Source: Herbiconiux oxytropis
Lineage (GTDB): Bacteria; Actinomycetota; Actinomycetes; Actinomycetales; Microbacteriaceae
NCBI RefSeq assembly: GCF_024979315.1
Contig: NZ_JANLCK010000003.1
Location: 496,001 to 560,000, forward strand
DNA length: 64,000 nucleotides
Direction of reading: 5' to 3'
The notes beneath the pieces were generated by a model. The model did not search any database, was not told the DNA's origin, and saw only the letters and a program-made list of their open reading frames with translations. A program made the position numbers and the translations under genes. Shown here one piece after another: positions 32,564 through 48,537 of the stretch (positions are counted from its first letter, which is position 1; each line of letters begins with the position of its first letter).

Positions 32564-33223
32564 TCAGGCGGGGCGGGGCGCGCCGAGGCGGGCCGCCTGG
32601 GCGGCGGCCTCGGCGTGGGCGGCGGCGAGCTCGGCCTCGGAGCGGGGGAGCTGCGGCGCCAGGGCAGGCACGTCGGCCGCCAGGGTGAGGTTCGTCTCGA
32701 TCACGGTGACCTCCATGCCGAGGGCGGTGCCCAGCACGAGGCGGAGCGCGGGCACCTCGTGGTCCCAGCCCTCCGTGGGGGAGCCGGCGTCATAGGAGGC
32801 ACCTCGGCTCGTCACGATCACGGCGGGACGCCCGGCGAGCGGCTGCGTGTCGCCGTCGAAGGGCGCGGTGACGCCCGGCACGTGGATGTTGTCGATCCAC
32901 GCCTTGAGCGACGACGGCAGCGAGTAGTTGTAGAGCGGAGCACCCACGAGCAGCACGTCGGCGGCGAGCAGCTCGGCGATGAGCGACGCCTGCAGCGCCT
33001 CGGCGTCGGCGGGAGGCGCGGCCTCGGCGTGCCGGAGCCGCGGCGGCCAGTGCAGCGAGTCGTCGGCGAGGTGGGGCAGCGGGTCTCGGTGCAGGTCGCG
33101 ATGGGTCACGGTGTTGCCCACCGCGGCCTTCAGCCACGCCTCGCTGAAGGTGCGGCCGATCGCCCGTGAGCGCGAGCGCTCGGCGGAGCCTGCGGAGGAG
33201 TCGAGGTGCAGCAGATTGAGCAT
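32564..33223 (-). CDS. FMN-dependent NADH-azoreductase (AzoR type)
   Basis: A 219-aa flavodoxin-fold oxidoreductase reducing quinones or azo compounds with NADH. Diagnostic are the N-terminal LHLDSSAGSAERSRS (phosphate loop) and PLYNYSLPSSLKAWIDNI (about residues 95-112), which binds FMN and forms the dimer. RGASYDAG marks the second FMN loop. A TAGCGT box 6 nt before the ATG indicates a leaderless transcript. It lies downstream of the acyl-CoA dehydrogenase on the same strand, but a long hairpin and its own promoter separate them. Confidence 0.92.
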   Translation of the reverse strand: MLNLLHLDSSAGSAERSRSRAIGRTFSEAWLKAAVGNTVTHRDLHRDPLPHLADDSLHWPPRLRHAEAAPPADAEALQASLIAELLAADVLLVGAPLYNYSLPSSLKAWIDNIHVPGVTAPFDGDTQPLAGRPAVIVTSRGASYDAGSPTEGWDHEVPALRLVLGTALGMEVTVIETNLTLAADVPALAPQLPRSEAELAAAHAEAAAQAARLGAPRPA

Positions 33224-33250: not shown

Positions 33251-33320
33251 CCTCTGCCGAACCGTCACTTCTCACACCTCCCAGCCCTCTTTGGTGTGGA
33301 AAGTGACGTCTCGGCAGAGG
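33251..33320. repeat. 28-bp-arm palindromic element (copy A)
   Basis: Arms 33251-33278 and 33293-33320 pair at 24 of 28 positions around a 14-nt loop. The outer part TGCCGAACCGTCA and its partner TGACGTCTCGGCA are shared with the element at 61023-61086. It begins 2 bp after the acyl-CoA dehydrogenase stop, so it may serve as that operon's terminator while belonging to a dispersed repeat family. Confidence 0.9.
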
Positions 33321-33322
33321 GT

Positions 33323-34492
33323 CTAGGGGGTGGCAGTGCGGGCGCGGGCTGTGGCCAGCACGGCGCGCGCCACCACCGTCTTCTGGATCTCGTTGGTGCC
33401 CTCCTCGAACCGCTGCGCCCTGGCGTCGCGGTAGACCCGCTCGATCGCGTTGCGCCGCCAGTAGCCCTGCCCGCCGTGGATCTGCAGCGCCCGGTCGGTG
33501 ACCCGTCCGAGCATGTCGACGGCCACGATCTTCGACGCGCTCGACAGCGCCGCCGCATCCGGAGCCGAGCGCTCGTAGGCGCGCGCCGCCTCGAGCACGA
33601 GCGCCCGGGCAGCGACGATGTCGGCGTAGTTCTCGGCCAGGTAGGCCTGGATGACGGGCCGCTCGGCGAGCGTCTTGCCGAAGGTCGTGCGGGTGAGCGC
33701 GTAGGAGGCCGCGAGCTCCTGAGCTCGCTCGGCGAGCCCGACGCAGCTCATCGCCACCGAGACCCGGCTCGGCAGCAGGAATCCGCCGAGCGCCACCGCG
33801 AGCCCCTCGCCCTCGGCGCCGATTCGCGCCGAGACGGGCACGGGGGTGTCGCTGAAGCGCAGGATCGCGTGGTCGGTGCCACGCACGCCCATCGTGTCGG
33901 AGTCGTCGATCACCTCCGCGCCCGGCAGGCCGGAGTTCGGCACGAGCAGCGCCACGGTGCCCTCTGCCCCGCTGCTGCCCTCGAGTCGCGCGAAGAGCAG
34001 CCAGCGGTCGGCCTTCACACCGAAGGTGATGAGGTGCTTCTCGCCGTTCAGCAGGTAGACGTCGCCGTCCCGGCGCACGGTGCTGCGGATGTCGGCCCCG
34101 GTTCCCGCGGTGGCCTCGGTGAGCGTGAACGCCACGAGCTCCTCGCCGCTGACGGCGCGCTTCAGCACCTCGCGCTGCGCATCGTCGACGAACGGCGCCA
34201 TGGCCCGCCAGAGGCCGTTGTTGACGTGCACGAGCATCCGGATCGAGCCGTGCGAGCGCGAGACGATCTCGAGCAGCTCCAGGTAGCGGGCGAACGGGAT
34301 GCCGCGGCCACCGAGCTCCTCGGGGGCGGCGAGGCTCAGCCAGCCCCGGTCGCGGAGCTCGGCGTAGAGCTCCGCGGGCACGTCGCCGAGCTCCTCGATG
34401 CGCTCGGACCACTCCTCCCCTGGCCCGCGCACCCAGGCGTCGAGCTCGGCCTTCAGCTGTTCGAACTCCGCGTCGCTCGCACTCACGCTCAC
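33323..34492 (-). CDS. Acyl-CoA dehydrogenase family protein
   Basis: A 389-aa flavoprotein that introduces a double bond next to a CoA thioester. The FAD/substrate strand is AFTLTEATAGTGADI; the C-terminal helical domain has QIHGGQGYWRRNAIERVYRD, and the catalytic base Glu is in RFEEGTNEIQ (near residue 370). The GTG at 34492 overlaps the AMP-ligase stop (GTGA) and has AAGGAG 5 nt upstream; a second GTG at 34486 is possible. It is third in the coupled set EPSPS-like, AMP ligase, dehydrogenase, which suggests that it oxidises the ring or chain of the acyl-CoA made by the ligase. Confidence 0.9.
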   Translation of the reverse strand: MSVSASDAEFEQLKAELDAWVRGPGEEWSERIEELGDVPAELYAELRDRGWLSLAAPEELGGRGIPFARYLELLEIVSRSHGSIRMLVHVNNGLWRAMAPFVDDAQREVLKRAVSGEELVAFTLTEATAGTGADIRSTVRRDGDVYLLNGEKHLITFGVKADRWLLFARLEGSSGAEGTVALLVPNSGLPGAEVIDDSDTMGVRGTDHAILRFSDTPVPVSARIGAEGEGLAVALGGFLLPSRVSVAMSCVGLAERAQELAASYALTRTTFGKTLAERPVIQAYLAENYADIVAARALVLEAARAYERSAPDAAALSSASKIVAVDMLGRVTDRALQIHGGQGYWRRNAIERVYRDARAQRFEEGTNEIQKTVVARAVLATARARTATP

Positions 34493-36231
34493 GCACTCTC
34501 CTTCTGTCGCTCGCGCTCCACGAGCGCGGCGGCGCGCTCCCGCAGCAGGTTCTTCTGGATCTTGCCCACCGCGTTCCGCGGCAGCTCCCCGATGGCCTCG
34601 AGTCGCTCGGGCCAGTAGTACTTCGACACGCCCCGCTCGCCGAGATACCCCTGCATCTCGGCGAATCCGAGCGGATGCGCCGGGTCGGAGGCCACCACGA
34701 AGGCGCACGCGCGCTCGCCGAGGCGGGGGTCGGGCATGGCCACGACGGCCACGTCCTTCACCGCCGAATGCGCGAACAGCAGGTTCTCGATCTCGACCAC
34801 GGGCACCTTCTCGCCGCCGCGGTTGATGACGTCCTTCACCCGCCCGGTGATGTGCAGGAACCCGTCGGCGTCGAGCACGGCCCGGTCGCCCGTGCGGTAC
34901 CAGCCGTCGGCGGTGAACACCTCGGCGGTGAGGTCGGGGCGGTCGAGGTAGCCGAGGAACATCGTGGGGCTCGAGAGCTCGTAGTCGCCCTCGCGGCCGG
35001 CGGGGAGCTCGACCCCCTCGTCGTCGACGATGCGCACGCGGATGCCGGTGAGCGGGCGGCCGTCGGTGCCCCAGGCGGAGCCCGGCGGATCGGTGGGCGC
35101 CGAGAGCGTGCCGAGGCAGGTCTCGGTGGTGCCGAACGCGCCGAGCACCGCCGCGCCGAGCACTCCCGTGGCGCGCTCGGCGAGCTGCCGGGGCACGGCC
35201 GCCCCGGTGGCCACGAAGATGCGCAGGCTGGAGGGCGGGGGAGCCCCCTCCTCGACGGCCGCGACGACATCCATCAGGAACGGCGTCGCCGCCTGCACGA
35301 ACGTGGCGCCCTTGCGGCCGAAGGCCTGCTCGAGGGCGACCCGGGCATCCCACACCGGCTGCACGACGGCCGCGACGCCGAGCCGCCAGCTCAGCAGCAG
35401 CCCGTAGAGGAAGCCGGTCTGGTGGGCGAGGGGCGACGGGATGAAGACGCGGTCGTCGCCGCCGAGACCGAGGTGCTCGACCTCGAGCGCGGTGGCGAGG
35501 GCGAGCGTGCCGTGCCGGTGCTGCACGCCCTTCGGCTCACCGGTGGTTCCCGAGGTGAACAGCAGCTGCGCGATGTCGTCGGCACCCGGCCGCCGTCGCT
35601 CGATCGCCTCCCGCGACGCCGCATCGGGCGTCGCATCCGGGGCCGCATCCGTGTCGAAGTCGTGCCAGGCGAGCGGGAGCCCGGGGGTGGCCGGCGGCAC
35701 GAAGGTGACGCCCTCGCCGGAGGACCCCGCGCGCGCCGCGCCGGCGGGATCGACGTCCCCCATCACGACCACGTGCTCGAGCGCGAGCGGTCGCTCCTGC
35801 CGGGCGGCCTCGGCCGCGACGCCCGCCACCTCGGCCGCGTGCCGGCGCCCGCGGAACGAGCGCGGCGCGATGAGTACGCGTGCCCGCGAGCGTGCGAGCA
35901 CCATGGCCACCTCGCGCTCGCCGAACACCGGCATCACGGGGGCAACGACCGCGCCGATCTGCAGCACGCCGAGGGTCACCTCCACGCACTCGGCCCAGTT
36001 CGGCAGCTGGAACGCGACCGCCTCGCCCGGCCGCACCCCGAGCCGCAGCAGCAGCGCCGAGACGGCGTCGGCCCGCCTCCGCAGCTCACCGCGGCTGAGG
36101 GTCGCAGGCCGGTCGCCGACCTCGATCACGGCCGCCGCCGTCGCATCCGCCTCGACGAGCTCGTCCACCCGCGCCGTCAGCCCGGCATCGCTCGGGCCGA
36201 CATCGCTCTGACCGGGCCGGGCATGCGTCAC
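34489..36231 (-). CDS. AMP-forming acyl/aryl-CoA ligase
   Basis: A 580-aa ANL-superfamily enzyme that activates a carboxylic acid through its adenylate to a CoA thioester. Motifs: A3 P-loop LLFTSGTTGEPKGVQH (near residue 220), A5 FGTTETCLG, A7/A8 WYRTGDRAVLDADGFLHITG then RVKDVINRGGEK, and the C-terminal Lys in NAVGKIQKN. The length and the mid-section recall cyclohexanecarboxylate- and benzoate-type ligases, but the acid is not known. The GTG start has AGGAGG 7 nt upstream and overlaps the stop of the EPSPS-like gene; its own stop overlaps the dehydrogenase start. Confidence 0.92.
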   Translation of the reverse strand: MTHARPGQSDVGPSDAGLTARVDELVEADATAAAVIEVGDRPATLSRGELRRRADAVSALLLRLGVRPGEAVAFQLPNWAECVEVTLGVLQIGAVVAPVMPVFGEREVAMVLARSRARVLIAPRSFRGRRHAAEVAGVAAEAARQERPLALEHVVVMGDVDPAGAARAGSSGEGVTFVPPATPGLPLAWHDFDTDAAPDATPDAASREAIERRRPGADDIAQLLFTSGTTGEPKGVQHRHGTLALATALEVEHLGLGGDDRVFIPSPLAHQTGFLYGLLLSWRLGVAAVVQPVWDARVALEQAFGRKGATFVQAATPFLMDVVAAVEEGAPPPSSLRIFVATGAAVPRQLAERATGVLGAAVLGAFGTTETCLGTLSAPTDPPGSAWGTDGRPLTGIRVRIVDDEGVELPAGREGDYELSSPTMFLGYLDRPDLTAEVFTADGWYRTGDRAVLDADGFLHITGRVKDVINRGGEKVPVVEIENLLFAHSAVKDVAVVAMPDPRLGERACAFVVASDPAHPLGFAEMQGYLGERGVSKYYWPERLEAIGELPRNAVGKIQKNLLRERAAALVERERQKESA

Positions 36232-37604
36232 GAGCCGACCTCCTGGCGAGTGCGCTCGGAGGTGATCGACAGGTCGAGTCCCACCCCGTTCATCGCGTCG
36301 AGGAACGTCGGGTACGAGATCCGGTAGGCCCGCGGATACGTCAGCCGCGACTCGCCCTCGGCCCGCGTGGCCGCCACGGCGAGCGACATGAGCACCCGGT
36401 GGTCGTTGAACGACGACAGGGGTGCGCCCCGGAGCCCGTCGACCCCGCGCACAGTGAGGGCGTCGCCCTCGTCGACGAGGTCTCCGCCGAGCTTGTTGAG
36501 CTGCAGCATGGCGTTCACCCGGTCGCTCTCCTTCAGCCGGATGTGCCCGATCGTGCGCAGCGTCGACGTGCCGTGCGCGAAGGTCGCGAGCGCCGAGACG
36601 ACGGGCAGGAGGTCCGGGATGCGCCGGCAGTCGAGATCGACCGGCTGCAGCTCGACGCGGTCGTGCCGCACGCGCACGAATCCTGTGGCCTGGTCCGTCT
36701 CGAGCGTGAGCCCCATGCCCGACACGATGTCGAGGAAGTCGGCTTCGGGGTGATCCGTGTCGGCACCCGTCGTGGCCGAGAGCCCGCGGAACAGCACGTC
36801 CGAGGGGTGCAGCGCCGTGGCGGCGAGCCCGAACGCCGCCGAGCCGATGTCGGGCGGGATGACGTAGTCGGTCGGCGCGGCCGTCTGTCCGGCCGGCACC
36901 GTGAAATGCCGCCAGTCGTCGGAGTGCTCCACCGAGAGCCCGAACTGCCGCATCATGCGCACCGTCAGCTCCACGTAGGGCTGCTCGTTGAGCTCGCCCA
37001 CGACCTCGATGCTCGTCTCCCGCTCGGCGAAGGGCGCCACGAGCAGCAGCCCCGAGATCCACTGCGAGAGCGTGCCGGCGATCCGAACGTGCCCTCCGGT
37101 GGGCCGCCCCGGCTGCACGGTGATGGGCGGCCGATCGTGCTCGGCGCGGTAGCGCACGCCGAGGGAGTCCAGGGAGTCGAGCAACGCCTTGATCGGGCGG
37201 CGCTGGAAGTACTTCATTCCGGTGAGCGTGACGGGCTTGTCGGCCAGCGCGGCGAGCCCGGTCATGAAGTAGAGCGTGGTGCCGGAGGATCCGACGTTCA
37301 GCACCCCGTCGGCCGAGCTCGACCCGTGGTCGACGACGCTCCCGCTCGTGTCGTACGGGCCCCCGTGCACGATGTAGCCGTCGGCGGTGACCTCGATGCG
37401 GGTGCCGAGCGCCCGCAGCACACCGATCGTCCAGACCACCTGACGGGTGTCCGAGAGCCCGGTGATGACGCTCCGGCCCGGCGCGAGCGAGGCGAGCACG
37501 AGGGCCCGGTGGGCGTGGTACTTCGAGACCGGGATGCTCAGCTCGCCGGAGACCGCGGACTCGGTCCCGTTCACGAACAGATGCACGTCTCCATGATGCC
37601 GCAC
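36228..37604 (-). CDS. Divergent EPSP-synthase (enolpyruvyl transferase) paralogue
   Basis: A 458-aa member of the EPSPS/MurA fold. Conserved landmarks: Lys and Arg in IPVSKYHAHRALVLASL (E. coli K22, R27), GSSGTTLYF, FQRRPIKAL (R124), SQWISGLLL (Q171 region), DCRRIPDLLPV (D313), RLKESDRV (E341, R344) and FNDHRVLMSL (R386). Differences in the shikimate/PEP site: S23 is Tyr, N94 is Ser, R100 is Tyr, and K411 reads Ile in AYRISYPTF. So it is unlikely to be the housekeeping AroA and probably uses another or modified substrate. It is translationally coupled to an AMP ligase and acyl-CoA dehydrogenase, and follows an anti-sigma gene by 29 bp. Start GTG at 37604; a GTG at 37586 is an alternative. 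Confidence 0.85.
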   Translation of the reverse strand: MRHHGDVHLFVNGTESAVSGELSIPVSKYHAHRALVLASLAPGRSVITGLSDTRQVVWTIGVLRALGTRIEVTADGYIVHGGPYDTSGSVVDHGSSSADGVLNVGSSGTTLYFMTGLAALADKPVTLTGMKYFQRRPIKALLDSLDSLGVRYRAEHDRPPITVQPGRPTGGHVRIAGTLSQWISGLLLVAPFAERETSIEVVGELNEQPYVELTVRMMRQFGLSVEHSDDWRHFTVPAGQTAAPTDYVIPPDIGSAAFGLAATALHPSDVLFRGLSATTGADTDHPEADFLDIVSGMGLTLETDQATGFVRVRHDRVELQPVDLDCRRIPDLLPVVSALATFAHGTSTLRTIGHIRLKESDRVNAMLQLNKLGGDLVDEGDALTVRGVDGLRGAPLSSFNDHRVLMSLAVAATRAEGESRLTYPRAYRISYPTFLDAMNGVGLDLSITSERTRQEVGS

Positions 37605-37633
37605 CCTGTATGTCGAGCGCGTTACGTGACGCC

Positions 37634-38380
37634 TCAGAGCGTCGTGCGCACGAGCGGCCGGTCGGTGTCCGAGAGCCTGATGTCGACCGAGCGGATGTCG
37701 GTGGTCGGGATCCGGGTCGAGGCCGAGAGGTTGCCGGCCGCAGTGCCCGTCGCGCTCCAGCTCGCGACGGTGGTCTCGACCCCTCCGGCATCGGTCACGA
37801 CGAGGTCGTAGTCGACCGGTTCGTACGCATCGGCCGGCTCGACCCGGTAGCTGCAGTTCCAGTCGAAGCGTGTTCCCCAGCCCTTCTCGGTGACCGTGAG
37901 CTGGGCGTCGAGCCAGCCGGGCTCTACCTGGGCCATGGCGCGCACGACACCGGGGGAGGGTGTGCTCGTGGCCTGAGCTTCAGGAGCGGGAGCCGCCGGT
38001 GCGCCGGCCCCGCCGAATCCCAGCCCGATGCCGGCGAGCACGCCCACCGCCGCGACGAGCACGCCGCCGCCGGCCACGAGTGCGCCGAGCCGTCGCCGCG
38101 ACCGCCGGCGGCTGCCGCGTGCGCGGCGGGCGAGATCCTGCACCCGGCCCGGCGCCCCCGAGAAAGAGGACGAGGAGCGGGGCGCGGAGTCGTCGGCGAG
38201 CAGCGCCTCCGCCTCCGCCGGAGTGAGCCGGCCGAGCAGGCCGGGCAGGCCCGCGATCTCGCTCACGGCCCGCGCGCAGGCGGGGCATTCGGCAAGGTGG
38301 CGCTCGAAGCTGCGCCGCTCGTCGGGGCTCAGCAGCCCCGCCACGTAGGCGGCATCCCAGTCGCTGTAGTCGTCGTTCAC
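37634..38380 (-). CDS. Zinc-finger anti-sigma factor
   Basis: A 248-aa single-pass membrane protein. The cytoplasmic anti-sigma domain has the ZAS motif HLAECPACARAV (His-x3-Cys-x2-Cys, near residue 28), then a basic segment, a TM helix (LVAGGGVLVAAVGVLAGIGL, about 100-120), and an extracellular beta domain of about 110 residues (TVTEKGWGTRFDWNCSYR). Such factors hold the ECF sigma until a redox or envelope signal. GTG start overlaps the sigma stop (GTGA), giving matched synthesis. Confidence 0.92.
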   Translation of the reverse strand: MNDDYSDWDAAYVAGLLSPDERRSFERHLAECPACARAVSEIAGLPGLLGRLTPAEAEALLADDSAPRSSSSFSGAPGRVQDLARRARGSRRRSRRRLGALVAGGGVLVAAVGVLAGIGLGFGGAGAPAAPAPEAQATSTPSPGVVRAMAQVEPGWLDAQLTVTEKGWGTRFDWNCSYRVEPADAYEPVDYDLVVTDAGGVETTVASWSATGTAAGNLSASTRIPTTDIRSVDIRLSDTDRPLVRTTL

Positions 38381-38919
38381 TCCGTCACCCCCCTCTCCTG
38401 CAGTGCGAGCCTCAGTGCTCGCAGCGCGTAGTGCAGTCGCGACCGCACGGTGCCGGCCGGGATGCCCTCGTGCCGCCCGATCTCGACCGCCGACTGCCCG
38501 AGGTAGAACGAGCGCACCACCACGGCGCGGTGCTCGAGGCTCAGGGCCTGCAGCGAGTCGGTCAGCAGCCAGCGGTCCAGCACGGCGTCGATCGCCTCGG
38601 TGCCGTCTGCCGTGCCCGTGCCGTCGAGGCCGCGCACCCGCGGGCCGTCCGGCACCTCGTCGACGCCGAACTCGCGTTGGTGCCGAGCGCTCCGCCGGTC
38701 GTCGATCACGAGGTTCCTGGCCACCGTGAAGAGCCACGCCCGCGCCTCGTCGTCGCTCTGCTCGAGGATCGCGGGTTTCTTCCAGGCGCGCAGCAGCGCC
38801 TCCTGCACCACGTCCTGGGTGAAGCCCTCGTCGCGGGTGAGGCGGAGCACGTAGCGGTGCAGCGCGGGCGCGTGCGCGTCGTGCACCGCCCGCAGCAGTT
38901 CGGCCTGATCGTCGGTCAT
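38377..38919 (-). CDS. ECF RNA polymerase sigma factor (SigK/SigL-like)
   Basis: A 180-aa group 4 sigma factor. Region 2 covers about residues 15-85 (DVVQEALLRAWKKPA, ARAWLFTVARNLVIDDRRSA) and region 4 about 120-175 (LEHRAVVVRSFYLGQSAVEI then GIPAGTVRSRLHYALRAL). The anti-sigma gene is coupled downstream. A TGAACG...CGTTGT promoter-like pair upstream overlaps the stop of the synthetase gene and fits autoregulation. The EPSPS-like operon that follows may belong to its regulon. Confidence 0.94.
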   Translation of the reverse strand: MTDDQAELLRAVHDAHAPALHRYVLRLTRDEGFTQDVVQEALLRAWKKPAILEQSDDEARAWLFTVARNLVIDDRRSARHQREFGVDEVPDGPRVRGLDGTGTADGTEAIDAVLDRWLLTDSLQALSLEHRAVVVRSFYLGQSAVEIGRHEGIPAGTVRSRLHYALRALRLALQERGVTE

Positions 38920-38941: not shown

Positions 38942-38969
38942 ACAACGGGGCCGGGCCGCCGAACGTTCA
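38942..38969 (-). promoter_or_regulatory. Candidate ECF promoter of the sigma/anti-sigma operon
   Basis: On the minus strand TGAACG (38969-38964), a 16-bp spacer, and CGTTGT (38947-38942). This resembles the TGAAC-N16-CGT form of SigK/SigL-type ECF promoters and ends 22 nt before the sigma start. Confidence 0.45.
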
Positions 38970-48464: not shown

Positions 48465-48537
48465 GGCCCCATCGTTTAGCGGCCTAGGACGTCGCCCTCT
48501 CACGGCGGTAACGCGGGTTCAAATCCCGCTGGGGTCA
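48465..48537 (+). tRNA. tRNA-Glu (anticodon CTC)
   Basis: 73-nt cloverleaf. The acceptor stem GGCCCCA pairs with TGGGGTC (one G-T pair); the anticodon loop CTCTCAC gives CTC; the T-arm CGGGTTCAAATCCCG is canonical. Discriminator base A; CCA is not encoded. A CATACT at 48442-48447 may be its -10 box. Confidence 0.97.

Follow-up and report, generated by a model that had tools for sequence, protein, structure and literature searches.

A 64,000-nucleotide stretch of the Herbiconiux oxytropis genome (contig NZ_JANLCK010000003.1, positions 496,001 to 560,000; hereafter the window) carries genes for an enzyme resembling 5-enolpyruvylshikimate-3-phosphate (EPSP) synthase (J), an acyl-CoA ligase (K) and an acyl-CoA dehydrogenase (ACAD; L), which lie downstream of an extracytoplasmic function (ECF) sigma factor and its anti-sigma factor. 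Comparison with related loci leads us to favor, with moderate confidence, the reading that this operon descends, in truncated and sigma-linked form, from the cyclohexanecarboxyl-CoA (CHC-CoA) cassette, with a pathway that most likely ends at a C7 acyl-CoA either less reduced than CHC-CoA or aromatised. The initial annotation of this DNA recognised the pathway correctly, but the cassette in the window is incomplete. The CHC-CoA cassette itself is known; what is new is its sigma-linked form, in which J and K are split and both reductases are absent. To our knowledge, the first steps from shikimate to CHC-CoA, above all the role of the EPSP synthase-like J, are not settled.

Conservation of the J-K-L gene order

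The three genes lie on the minus strand. J (36228..37586) encodes a PlmJ-type, EPSP synthase-like enzyme with a score of 268 bits against PF00275; the version of the protein called P0001 starts at 37604. It is joined by a GTGA overlap (36231-36228) to K (34489..36231), a PlmK-type ligase with an AMP-binding domain (232 bits), and K is joined in the same way (34492-34489) to L (33323..34492), a PlmL-type ACAD with N-terminal, middle and C-terminal domains. The best NCBIfam match of K was cyclohexanecarboxylate-CoA ligase (TIGR03208) at 426 bits, under the cut-off of 792, and those of L were acryloyl-CoA reductase (204 bits) and others, all under cut-off. These overlaps, together with a third between the sigma and anti-sigma genes (38380-38377), had been noted in the initial annotation and were read again in the sequence and translations, and domain profile scores bore out its assignment of all five genes to their families.

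Relatives of the trio were collected from several samples. Among 150 genomes of the same family, 19, including our own, had a J orthologue at E <= 1e-40. Same-family genomes proved identical in J-K to records of Homoserinimonas and Microbacterium, in keeping with a family placement in Microbacteriaceae. The ligase gene followed J in 18 of 18 relatives and an ACAD gene came next in 17, the contig of the remaining locus (L028) ending first. A scan of named genomes yielded 217 relatives, and locus counts were made on the best 80 of these 217, matches having been ranked against a fused query and the sample thus being biased towards fused copies. Of the named loci, 70 had enough room on the contig beyond J-K, and ACAD came next in 68 of them. 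Taken together, these counts indicated that the association of J, K and L is not due to chance. In the family sample, J and K were fused in one open frame, with a linker of varying length, in 16 of the 18 relatives, and in L028 the contig stops within the ligase part with the frame still open. All 80 of the best named relatives were fused, as were the two other strong J orthologues (568 and 510 bits) of a class sample of 394 genomes, our own included, in which all remaining matches scored 170.2 bits or less.

The genes downstream of ACAD in these loci encode a short-chain dehydrogenase/reductase (SDR) and an Old Yellow Enzyme (OYE)-type reductase. ACAD, SDR and OYE were all present downstream in 51 of the 70 loci with room; SDR only was missing in 10, OYE only in 5, ACAD stood alone in 2 and none of the three was found in 2. 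Wherever all five parts were found (55 of the 80 loci), their order and strand were identical. The best NCBIfam match of the SDR was the enoyl reductase FabL, under cut-off, and the OYE-type reductase was close to BaiCD and the mycofactocin OYE, all under cut-off. In the phoslactomycin and lactomycin clusters, for which CHC-CoA is the starter, the order given in Table 2 of PMC5852498 is plmJK, plmL, ChcA, plmM, and a passage of PMC7496768 also names cyclohexanecarboxyl-CoA as the starter there. The assignment of the SDR as ChcA rests on this published gene order and on FabL as its best family. Compared through the published table with the plm cassette (plmJK-plmL-chcA-plmM; lmP1-P4), the window has J, K and L in the same order, as the initial annotation had supposed in linking them to CHC-CoA supply, and the assignment of the trio to the CHC-CoA cassette is supported by this match. 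Unlike the plm cassette, the window has JK as two overlapping genes, lacks chcA and plmM, and carries an ECF sigma/anti-sigma pair together with a second ligase gene upstream. Among the literature titles listed, subscription papers being mostly outside reach, none concerned a truncated or sigma-linked form of a CHC-CoA cassette.

Full cassettes were found in Curtobacterium, Sinomonas, Micromonospora, Lentzea and metagenome-assembled genomes (MAGs) of Eremiobacterota, and Arthrobacter and Cellulomonas had J-K-L-OYE with an unlinked SDR. The ligase and ACAD thus travel with J across many actinobacterial families and the Eremiobacterota MAGs, a distribution at odds with simple genes of beta-oxidation. 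Plain fatty-acid catabolism was rejected on the strength of this synteny and of the J-K fusion; the accompanying tree (109 joined J-K rows, midpoint root, quick method) covers J and K only. Fused JK occurred in ten Candidatus Eremiobacterota MAGs (L117, L118, L120, L122, L124, L125, L127, L128, L148 and L153), which formed one tree group; ACAD, SDR and OYE were present in eight of the ten, L124 and L127 being short contigs. The Eremiobacterota JK genes probably reflect transfer between phyla, and MAG contamination is another possibility. Streptomyces albus NRRL B-1811 (L106) and S. xiaopingdaonensis (L107) had a fused JK without adjoining ACAD, SDR and OYE, and a full cassette elsewhere (L112, L114).

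Streptomyces kronopolitis makes phoslactomycins, and in its locus (L095) a type I polyketide synthase (PKS) gene lies directly upstream of the fused-JK cassette. The S. piniterrae cassette (L070/L071) also adjoins type I PKS genes; one of the two class-sample orthologues belongs to S. piniterrae (L115 in the named scan, same contig, 100% identical), where two long genes adjoin the cassette, and the one scanned encodes a PKS starting with an acyltransferase domain. A FabF-type gene adjoined OYE in 15 of the 80 loci, directly downstream and on the same strand in 13, and a gene resembling class II 3-deoxy-D-arabino-heptulosonate 7-phosphate (DAHP) synthase lay within the stretch in 5 of the 80, directly upstream in 4; one member of each was identified. 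These neighbours fit fatty-acid use and shikimate supply, respectively. CHC-CoA supply genes are also known from ansatrienin biosynthesis, and in the comparison with the asukamycin and ansatrienin CHC-CoA supply the fatty-acid link through FabF-type neighbours belongs to the relatives' loci. In the asukamycin producer CHC-CoA is, according to a passage of PMC4147253, also a fatty-acid precursor, and omega-cyclohexyl fatty acids are made.

The closest stand-alone cassettes were those of Curtobacterium and Frondihabitans, of the same family, with the order JK-L-SDR-OYE (L166 ends before OYE). Unlike the window, they have a fused JK, no sigma match and both reductases. The longest gene called in the L165 stretch of this group was the JK fusion, so that no PKS-sized gene occurs there. 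Curtobacterium pusillum contains a cyclohexyl fatty acid, as stated in a passage of PMC3426160, and a Herbiconiux genus description lists cyclohexyl-C17:0 as a fatty acid that may be present (a passage of PMC10011130). By analogy, omega-cyclohexyl fatty acids are the probable product in relatives whose full cassette has no PKS close by, and the link to these lipids drawn in the initial annotation would hold for relatives with the full cassette.

Probable loss of chcA and plmM

In a sample of 16 genomes of the genus, J (E <= 1e-60) was present in 12, and the 11 J loci other than our own were fetched. SDR and OYE genes lay downstream of ACAD in 10 of these 11 congener loci and in a further locus, G026. 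A flavoprotein gene followed SDR and OYE in 9 of these 11 loci with both reductases; L187 ends first and L023 shows none. Across the 12 genus loci and G026, SDR and OYE were absent from the window and from G548 alone, and in both ACAD is followed directly by the flavoprotein gene, which in the window encodes a flavodoxin-fold NAD(P)H oxidoreductase (32564..33223, minus strand). G548 is the nearest relative, with a J 94% identical. In the other split loci having an SDR, the protein was 84-91% identical to P0008. A palindromic dispersed repeat of about 70 bp (33251..33320, minus strand) sits where the congeners have chcA and plmM. BLAST gave 50 matches to it in our own genome, many being the two strands of a single site, and G548 has no copy at this point.

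The absence of a ChcA-like reductase from the window, already noted in the initial annotation, was borne out, and the search was extended to whole genomes with SDR and OYE queries that both came from G093. No ChcA orthologue was found at the locus or genome-wide in our own genome, the best-scoring SDR being 36-37% identical, and no PlmM orthologue, the best OYE matching at 33-37% over the N-terminal half only. The G548 genome likewise had no orthologue of either (SDR 37%, OYE 35-37%). Positive controls were recovered for the SDR in G093 (100%) and G537 (89%), and for the OYE in G093 (100%), G537 (78%) and G543 (77%). Among 14 genomes with a roomy J-K locus but no adjacent SDR, 12 carry an SDR of 60-78% identity elsewhere, the other two being MAGs (G556 and G558); J-K-L without any ChcA is therefore unusual. 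Deletion of chcA and plmM probably took place in the ancestor that this species shares with its sister, a timing that we infer. A complete shikimate-to-CHC-CoA pathway to a fatty-acid primer, a use that the initial annotation considered possible, was not supported here, since orthologues of ChcA and PlmM are missing at the locus and in the genome and congeners keep both.

By stoichiometric arithmetic, conversion of shikimate to cyclohexanecarboxylate takes three dehydrations and four two-electron reductions. J, K and L alone are expected to carry out at most one reduction, so that the likely product would be a C7 acyl-CoA at a lower level of reduction, or an aromatised one. In the sequence of events we propose, J would remove a ring hydroxyl from shikimate, K would make the CoA thioester and L would do one redox step on it; without ChcA and PlmM, the pathway would stop at a shikimate-derived C7 acyl-CoA instead of CHC-CoA. 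An autoregulated ECF-sigma promoter would read the sigma and anti-sigma genes and then J-K-L, and transcription of J from a second promoter would begin at the GTG codon. The reaction steps, the product and the transcription are the parts of this proposal that we infer. More tentatively, J-K-L without ChcA and PlmM might form a functional short shikimate route that bypasses chorismate and leads to an unsaturated or aromatic C7 acyl-CoA, for example dihydroxycyclohexadiene-, cyclohexene- or hydroxybenzoyl-CoA, under a dedicated ECF sigma factor sensing an envelope signal.

A natural operon with separate J, K and L and no reductases is of interest since an early intermediate may be its end product. 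J and K can be studied apart here, although they are fused in the relatives seen outside the split group. The genus itself is a natural experiment with full, truncated and absent cassettes, readable in the fatty-acid profile.

Alternative explanations and selection on the remaining genes

Several observations weigh against a truncated CHC-CoA cassette in which J has a changed substrate, and each lends something to an alternative. The J protein (P0001) passes the TIGR01356 equivalog for aroA, at 314 bits against a cut-off of 287.25, as would be expected if J were a second EPSP synthase beside ordinary genes of fatty-acid activation and beta-oxidation, adjacent by chance. We regard this as very improbable, given the J-K fusion in relatives, the J-K-L block in Actinomycetota and Eremiobacterota MAGs, its match to the CHC-CoA cassette and the residues of J itself. 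The genome has three genes of the EPSP synthase family: a MurA-like gene that spans the right edge of the window, J, and a canonical aroA on contig 27 (G000:C27:308516-309751) with the motifs SKSLTNR, GLAGTVMR and DHRMA. The initial annotation had suggested a search for this second aroA and would have given up its reading had none been found. J is thus not the housekeeping gene, because a separate canonical aroA is present.

J residues were compared in an alignment of 110 rows, 104 of them different (six exact repeats). In 110 of 110 rows, the E. coli positions Ser23, Arg100, Ser169 and Ser197 were replaced by Tyr, Tyr, Leu and Glu. J therefore differs at these positions from EPSP synthase (AroA), with which it shares the fold family. 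The Leu was placed at position 169 by counting back from Gln171, the same position being a gap in the phmmer alignment. Lys22, Arg27, Arg124, Gln171, Glu341, Arg344 and Arg386 are kept, and the position of K411 aligns unsurely (Arg, a gap or one Lys in the multi-row alignment, Ile in the phmmer alignment). Housekeeping AroA rows came from 14 of 24 loci (L046-L069) picked by the motif SK[ST]..NR, a choice that itself imposes agreement at K22, S23 and R27; all 14 were canonical at positions 23, 100, 169 and 197. We take these four positions to belong to the shikimate-3-phosphate site, with the serines in its phosphate pocket. The loss of the phosphate-pocket serines from J suggests that its substrate probably lacks the 3-phosphate. 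A second housekeeping aroA was rejected in view of the separate canonical gene together with the substitutions in all rows, and the EPSP synthase that serves aromatic amino acid synthesis is an enzyme other than J.

The loss of chcA and plmM is also open to challenge, in that our own assembly and that of the sister G548 are drafts, 98% and 92% complete, and our genome offers possible substitutes in the form of 46 matches to the SDR (E <= 1e-8) and 4 to the OYE. Unrelated SDR and OYE paralogues might thus replace ChcA and PlmM, with CHC-CoA and omega-cyclohexyl fatty acids still being made, much as the SDR is unlinked in Arthrobacter and Cellulomonas. However, the unlinked SDR of ten Arthrobacter and Cellulomonas genomes is a clear orthologue (60-67%), well above the best-scoring SDR found here. 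Only the two MAGs lacked an SDR orthologue among the 14 genomes searched, and the adjoining flavin reductase (P0007) belongs to another family. A complete pathway of this kind is accordingly rather unlikely.

Lastly, four of the 16 congeners lack a J match, one of these genomes being only 88% complete, so that J is unevenly distributed in the genus or has been lost from part of it, and the truncated operon may be in decay. Selection was assessed between the window and G548 as the ratio of nonsynonymous to synonymous substitution (dN/dS; Nei-Gojobori method). The ratio was 0.21 for J, 0.26 for K, 0.05 for L, 0.05 for the sigma gene, 0.18 for the anti-sigma gene and 0.12 for the second ligase gene, LIG2, compared with 0.04-0.20 for five neighbouring genes. 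The J value thus sits at the upper end of that range, and K, with 13 gap columns, exceeds it. An operon that yields nothing useful after the deletion and is being lost, as in the four congeners, would be consistent with the faster evolution of K and with the repeat element at the scar. Neutral decay is, however, expected to drive dN/dS towards 1 and to break reading frames, and low values with intact frames indicate genes still under selection. All remaining operon genes were intact in both species at a dS of about 0.15-0.21 (J, K, L and LIG2), and the sigma promoter and the RTGA overlaps were kept. We consider a decaying remnant improbable.

The split group and its sigma factor

The sigma factor gene (38377..38919, minus strand) encodes sigma-70 regions 2 and 4 only, and overlaps by GTGA the anti-sigma gene (37634..38380, minus strand), whose product has a zf-HC2 domain. 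Regions 2 and 4 with an overlapping zinc-type anti-sigma factor constitute an ECF sigma/anti-sigma module. The closest NCBIfam family of the sigma factor was PRK09645, at 199.6 bits just under the cut-off of 202, which places it near the SigL-like ECF sigma factors with a zinc-type anti-sigma factor; here, the linked operon is one for a shikimate-derived acyl-CoA. Upstream of the pair lies LIG2 (P0006; 38967..40664, minus strand; longest open reading frame start 40745), a second AMP-dependent acyl-CoA ligase with PF00501 and PF13193 domains, which was absent from the initial annotation and is a member of the same linked block.

Loci with separate J and K numbered 13, comprising 12 of the window's genus, our own included, and G026. 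The 12 split rows of the tree formed one group (SH-aLRT 97) within a set of Microbacteriaceae rows that includes fused Curtobacterium and Frondihabitans copies. All 13 split loci join the J and K frames through an RTGA overlap and keep LIG2, sigma, anti-sigma, J, K and L in one linked block, with LIG2 upstream of sigma in each of the 12 loci besides our own. Among the loci examined, sigma matches at E <= 1e-15 occurred only in the split group, and LIG2 orthologues only in the split group and in six Streptomyces loci. The Streptomyces homologues were 58-62% identical and followed the FabF-type gene, the L101 copy (62%) lying downstream of a full cassette. The order JK-ACAD-SDR-OYE-FabF type-LIG2 was seen in L097, L098, L101, L102, L103 and L105. 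This arrangement suggests that LIG2 is part of the same lipid pathway as the cassette.

A putative ECF promoter of the sigma operon, TGAACG-N16-CGTTGT, was found at 38942..38969 on the minus strand, its TGA being the LIG2 stop codon. TGAACG-N16-CGT occurs upstream of sigma in 13 of 13 loci, with CGTTGT as the last hexamer in 11, CGTTGA in G548 and CGTCGT in G026. The looser pattern is expected by shuffling to match 0.02-0.07 times per sequence, and it did not occur in front of either LIG2 or J in any of these 13 loci. The strict form had two exact sites in our own genome, and a reversed control pattern none; the second exact copy (G000:C1:319119-319146) has no gene called nearby. The TGAAC/CGT type resembles the mycobacterial SigL promoter. 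Because this conserved ECF-type promoter precedes sigma in all 13 loci, sigma control is plausible, and the promoter of the sigma operon may be autoregulated.

The region between the anti-sigma gene and J was less uniform. The initial annotation placed the J-K-L genes 29 bp after the coupled sigma pair. The pair does lie upstream, but the 29-bp gap holds only with the start at 37604; codon scoring and homology favor the GTG at 37586, which gives 47 bp. Both truncated loci have this 47-bp spacing, against 100-2631 bp in the other 11 split loci. Upstream of J, GGCAnnAT is found at -78 to -90 in 9 of the 11 untruncated loci and a Shine-Dalgarno-like sequence in 11 of 11. In the window and G548, GGCAnnAT lies at -14 from J and the Shine-Dalgarno-like sequence is absent. 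A -10-like CATCAT (37593..37598, minus strand) ends 6 bases before the GTG, so that a transcript would begin at the predicted start codon, and the J message may be leaderless, its leader having been lost.

These features bear on whether sigma in fact controls J-K-L, as initially suggested, since in relatives J is preceded by an additional promoter-like element. The sigma pair could be a mere neighbour, with J-K-L on a housekeeping promoter of their own, a question independent of the other alternatives. The GGCAnnAT element between anti-sigma and J in most untruncated loci, the gap of up to 2.6 kb, the lack of an ECF-type site before J in the 13 loci and the lack of a sigma match in the other loci examined all fit such an arrangement. 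In the window, by contrast, the gap is only 47 bp on the same strand, and the six genes are linked throughout the split loci. We hold a mere neighbour to be possible but the less probable arrangement, and sigma linkage of the truncated cassette is retained.

Two further sequence elements recurred in the split loci. After GGCAnnAT, a conserved leader, AACCTTTTCGATGCCTGTGCGACT (<=6 mismatches), was present in 7 of the 13 (L186-L189, L191, L192 and L023) and absent in the window and G548; it is a candidate operator or RNA element. Before LIG2, a GTATACCTG-like sequence recurred in L186-L194, with ATATACCTG in the window and G548 (by eye, uncounted), and is a candidate -10 element or regulator site.

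Other features of the window

An anti-phage function for J-K-L was considered and dropped, a PADLOC search giving no match for J, K or L. The sole Rfam match in the window at the gathering threshold was a tRNA gene at 48465-48537.

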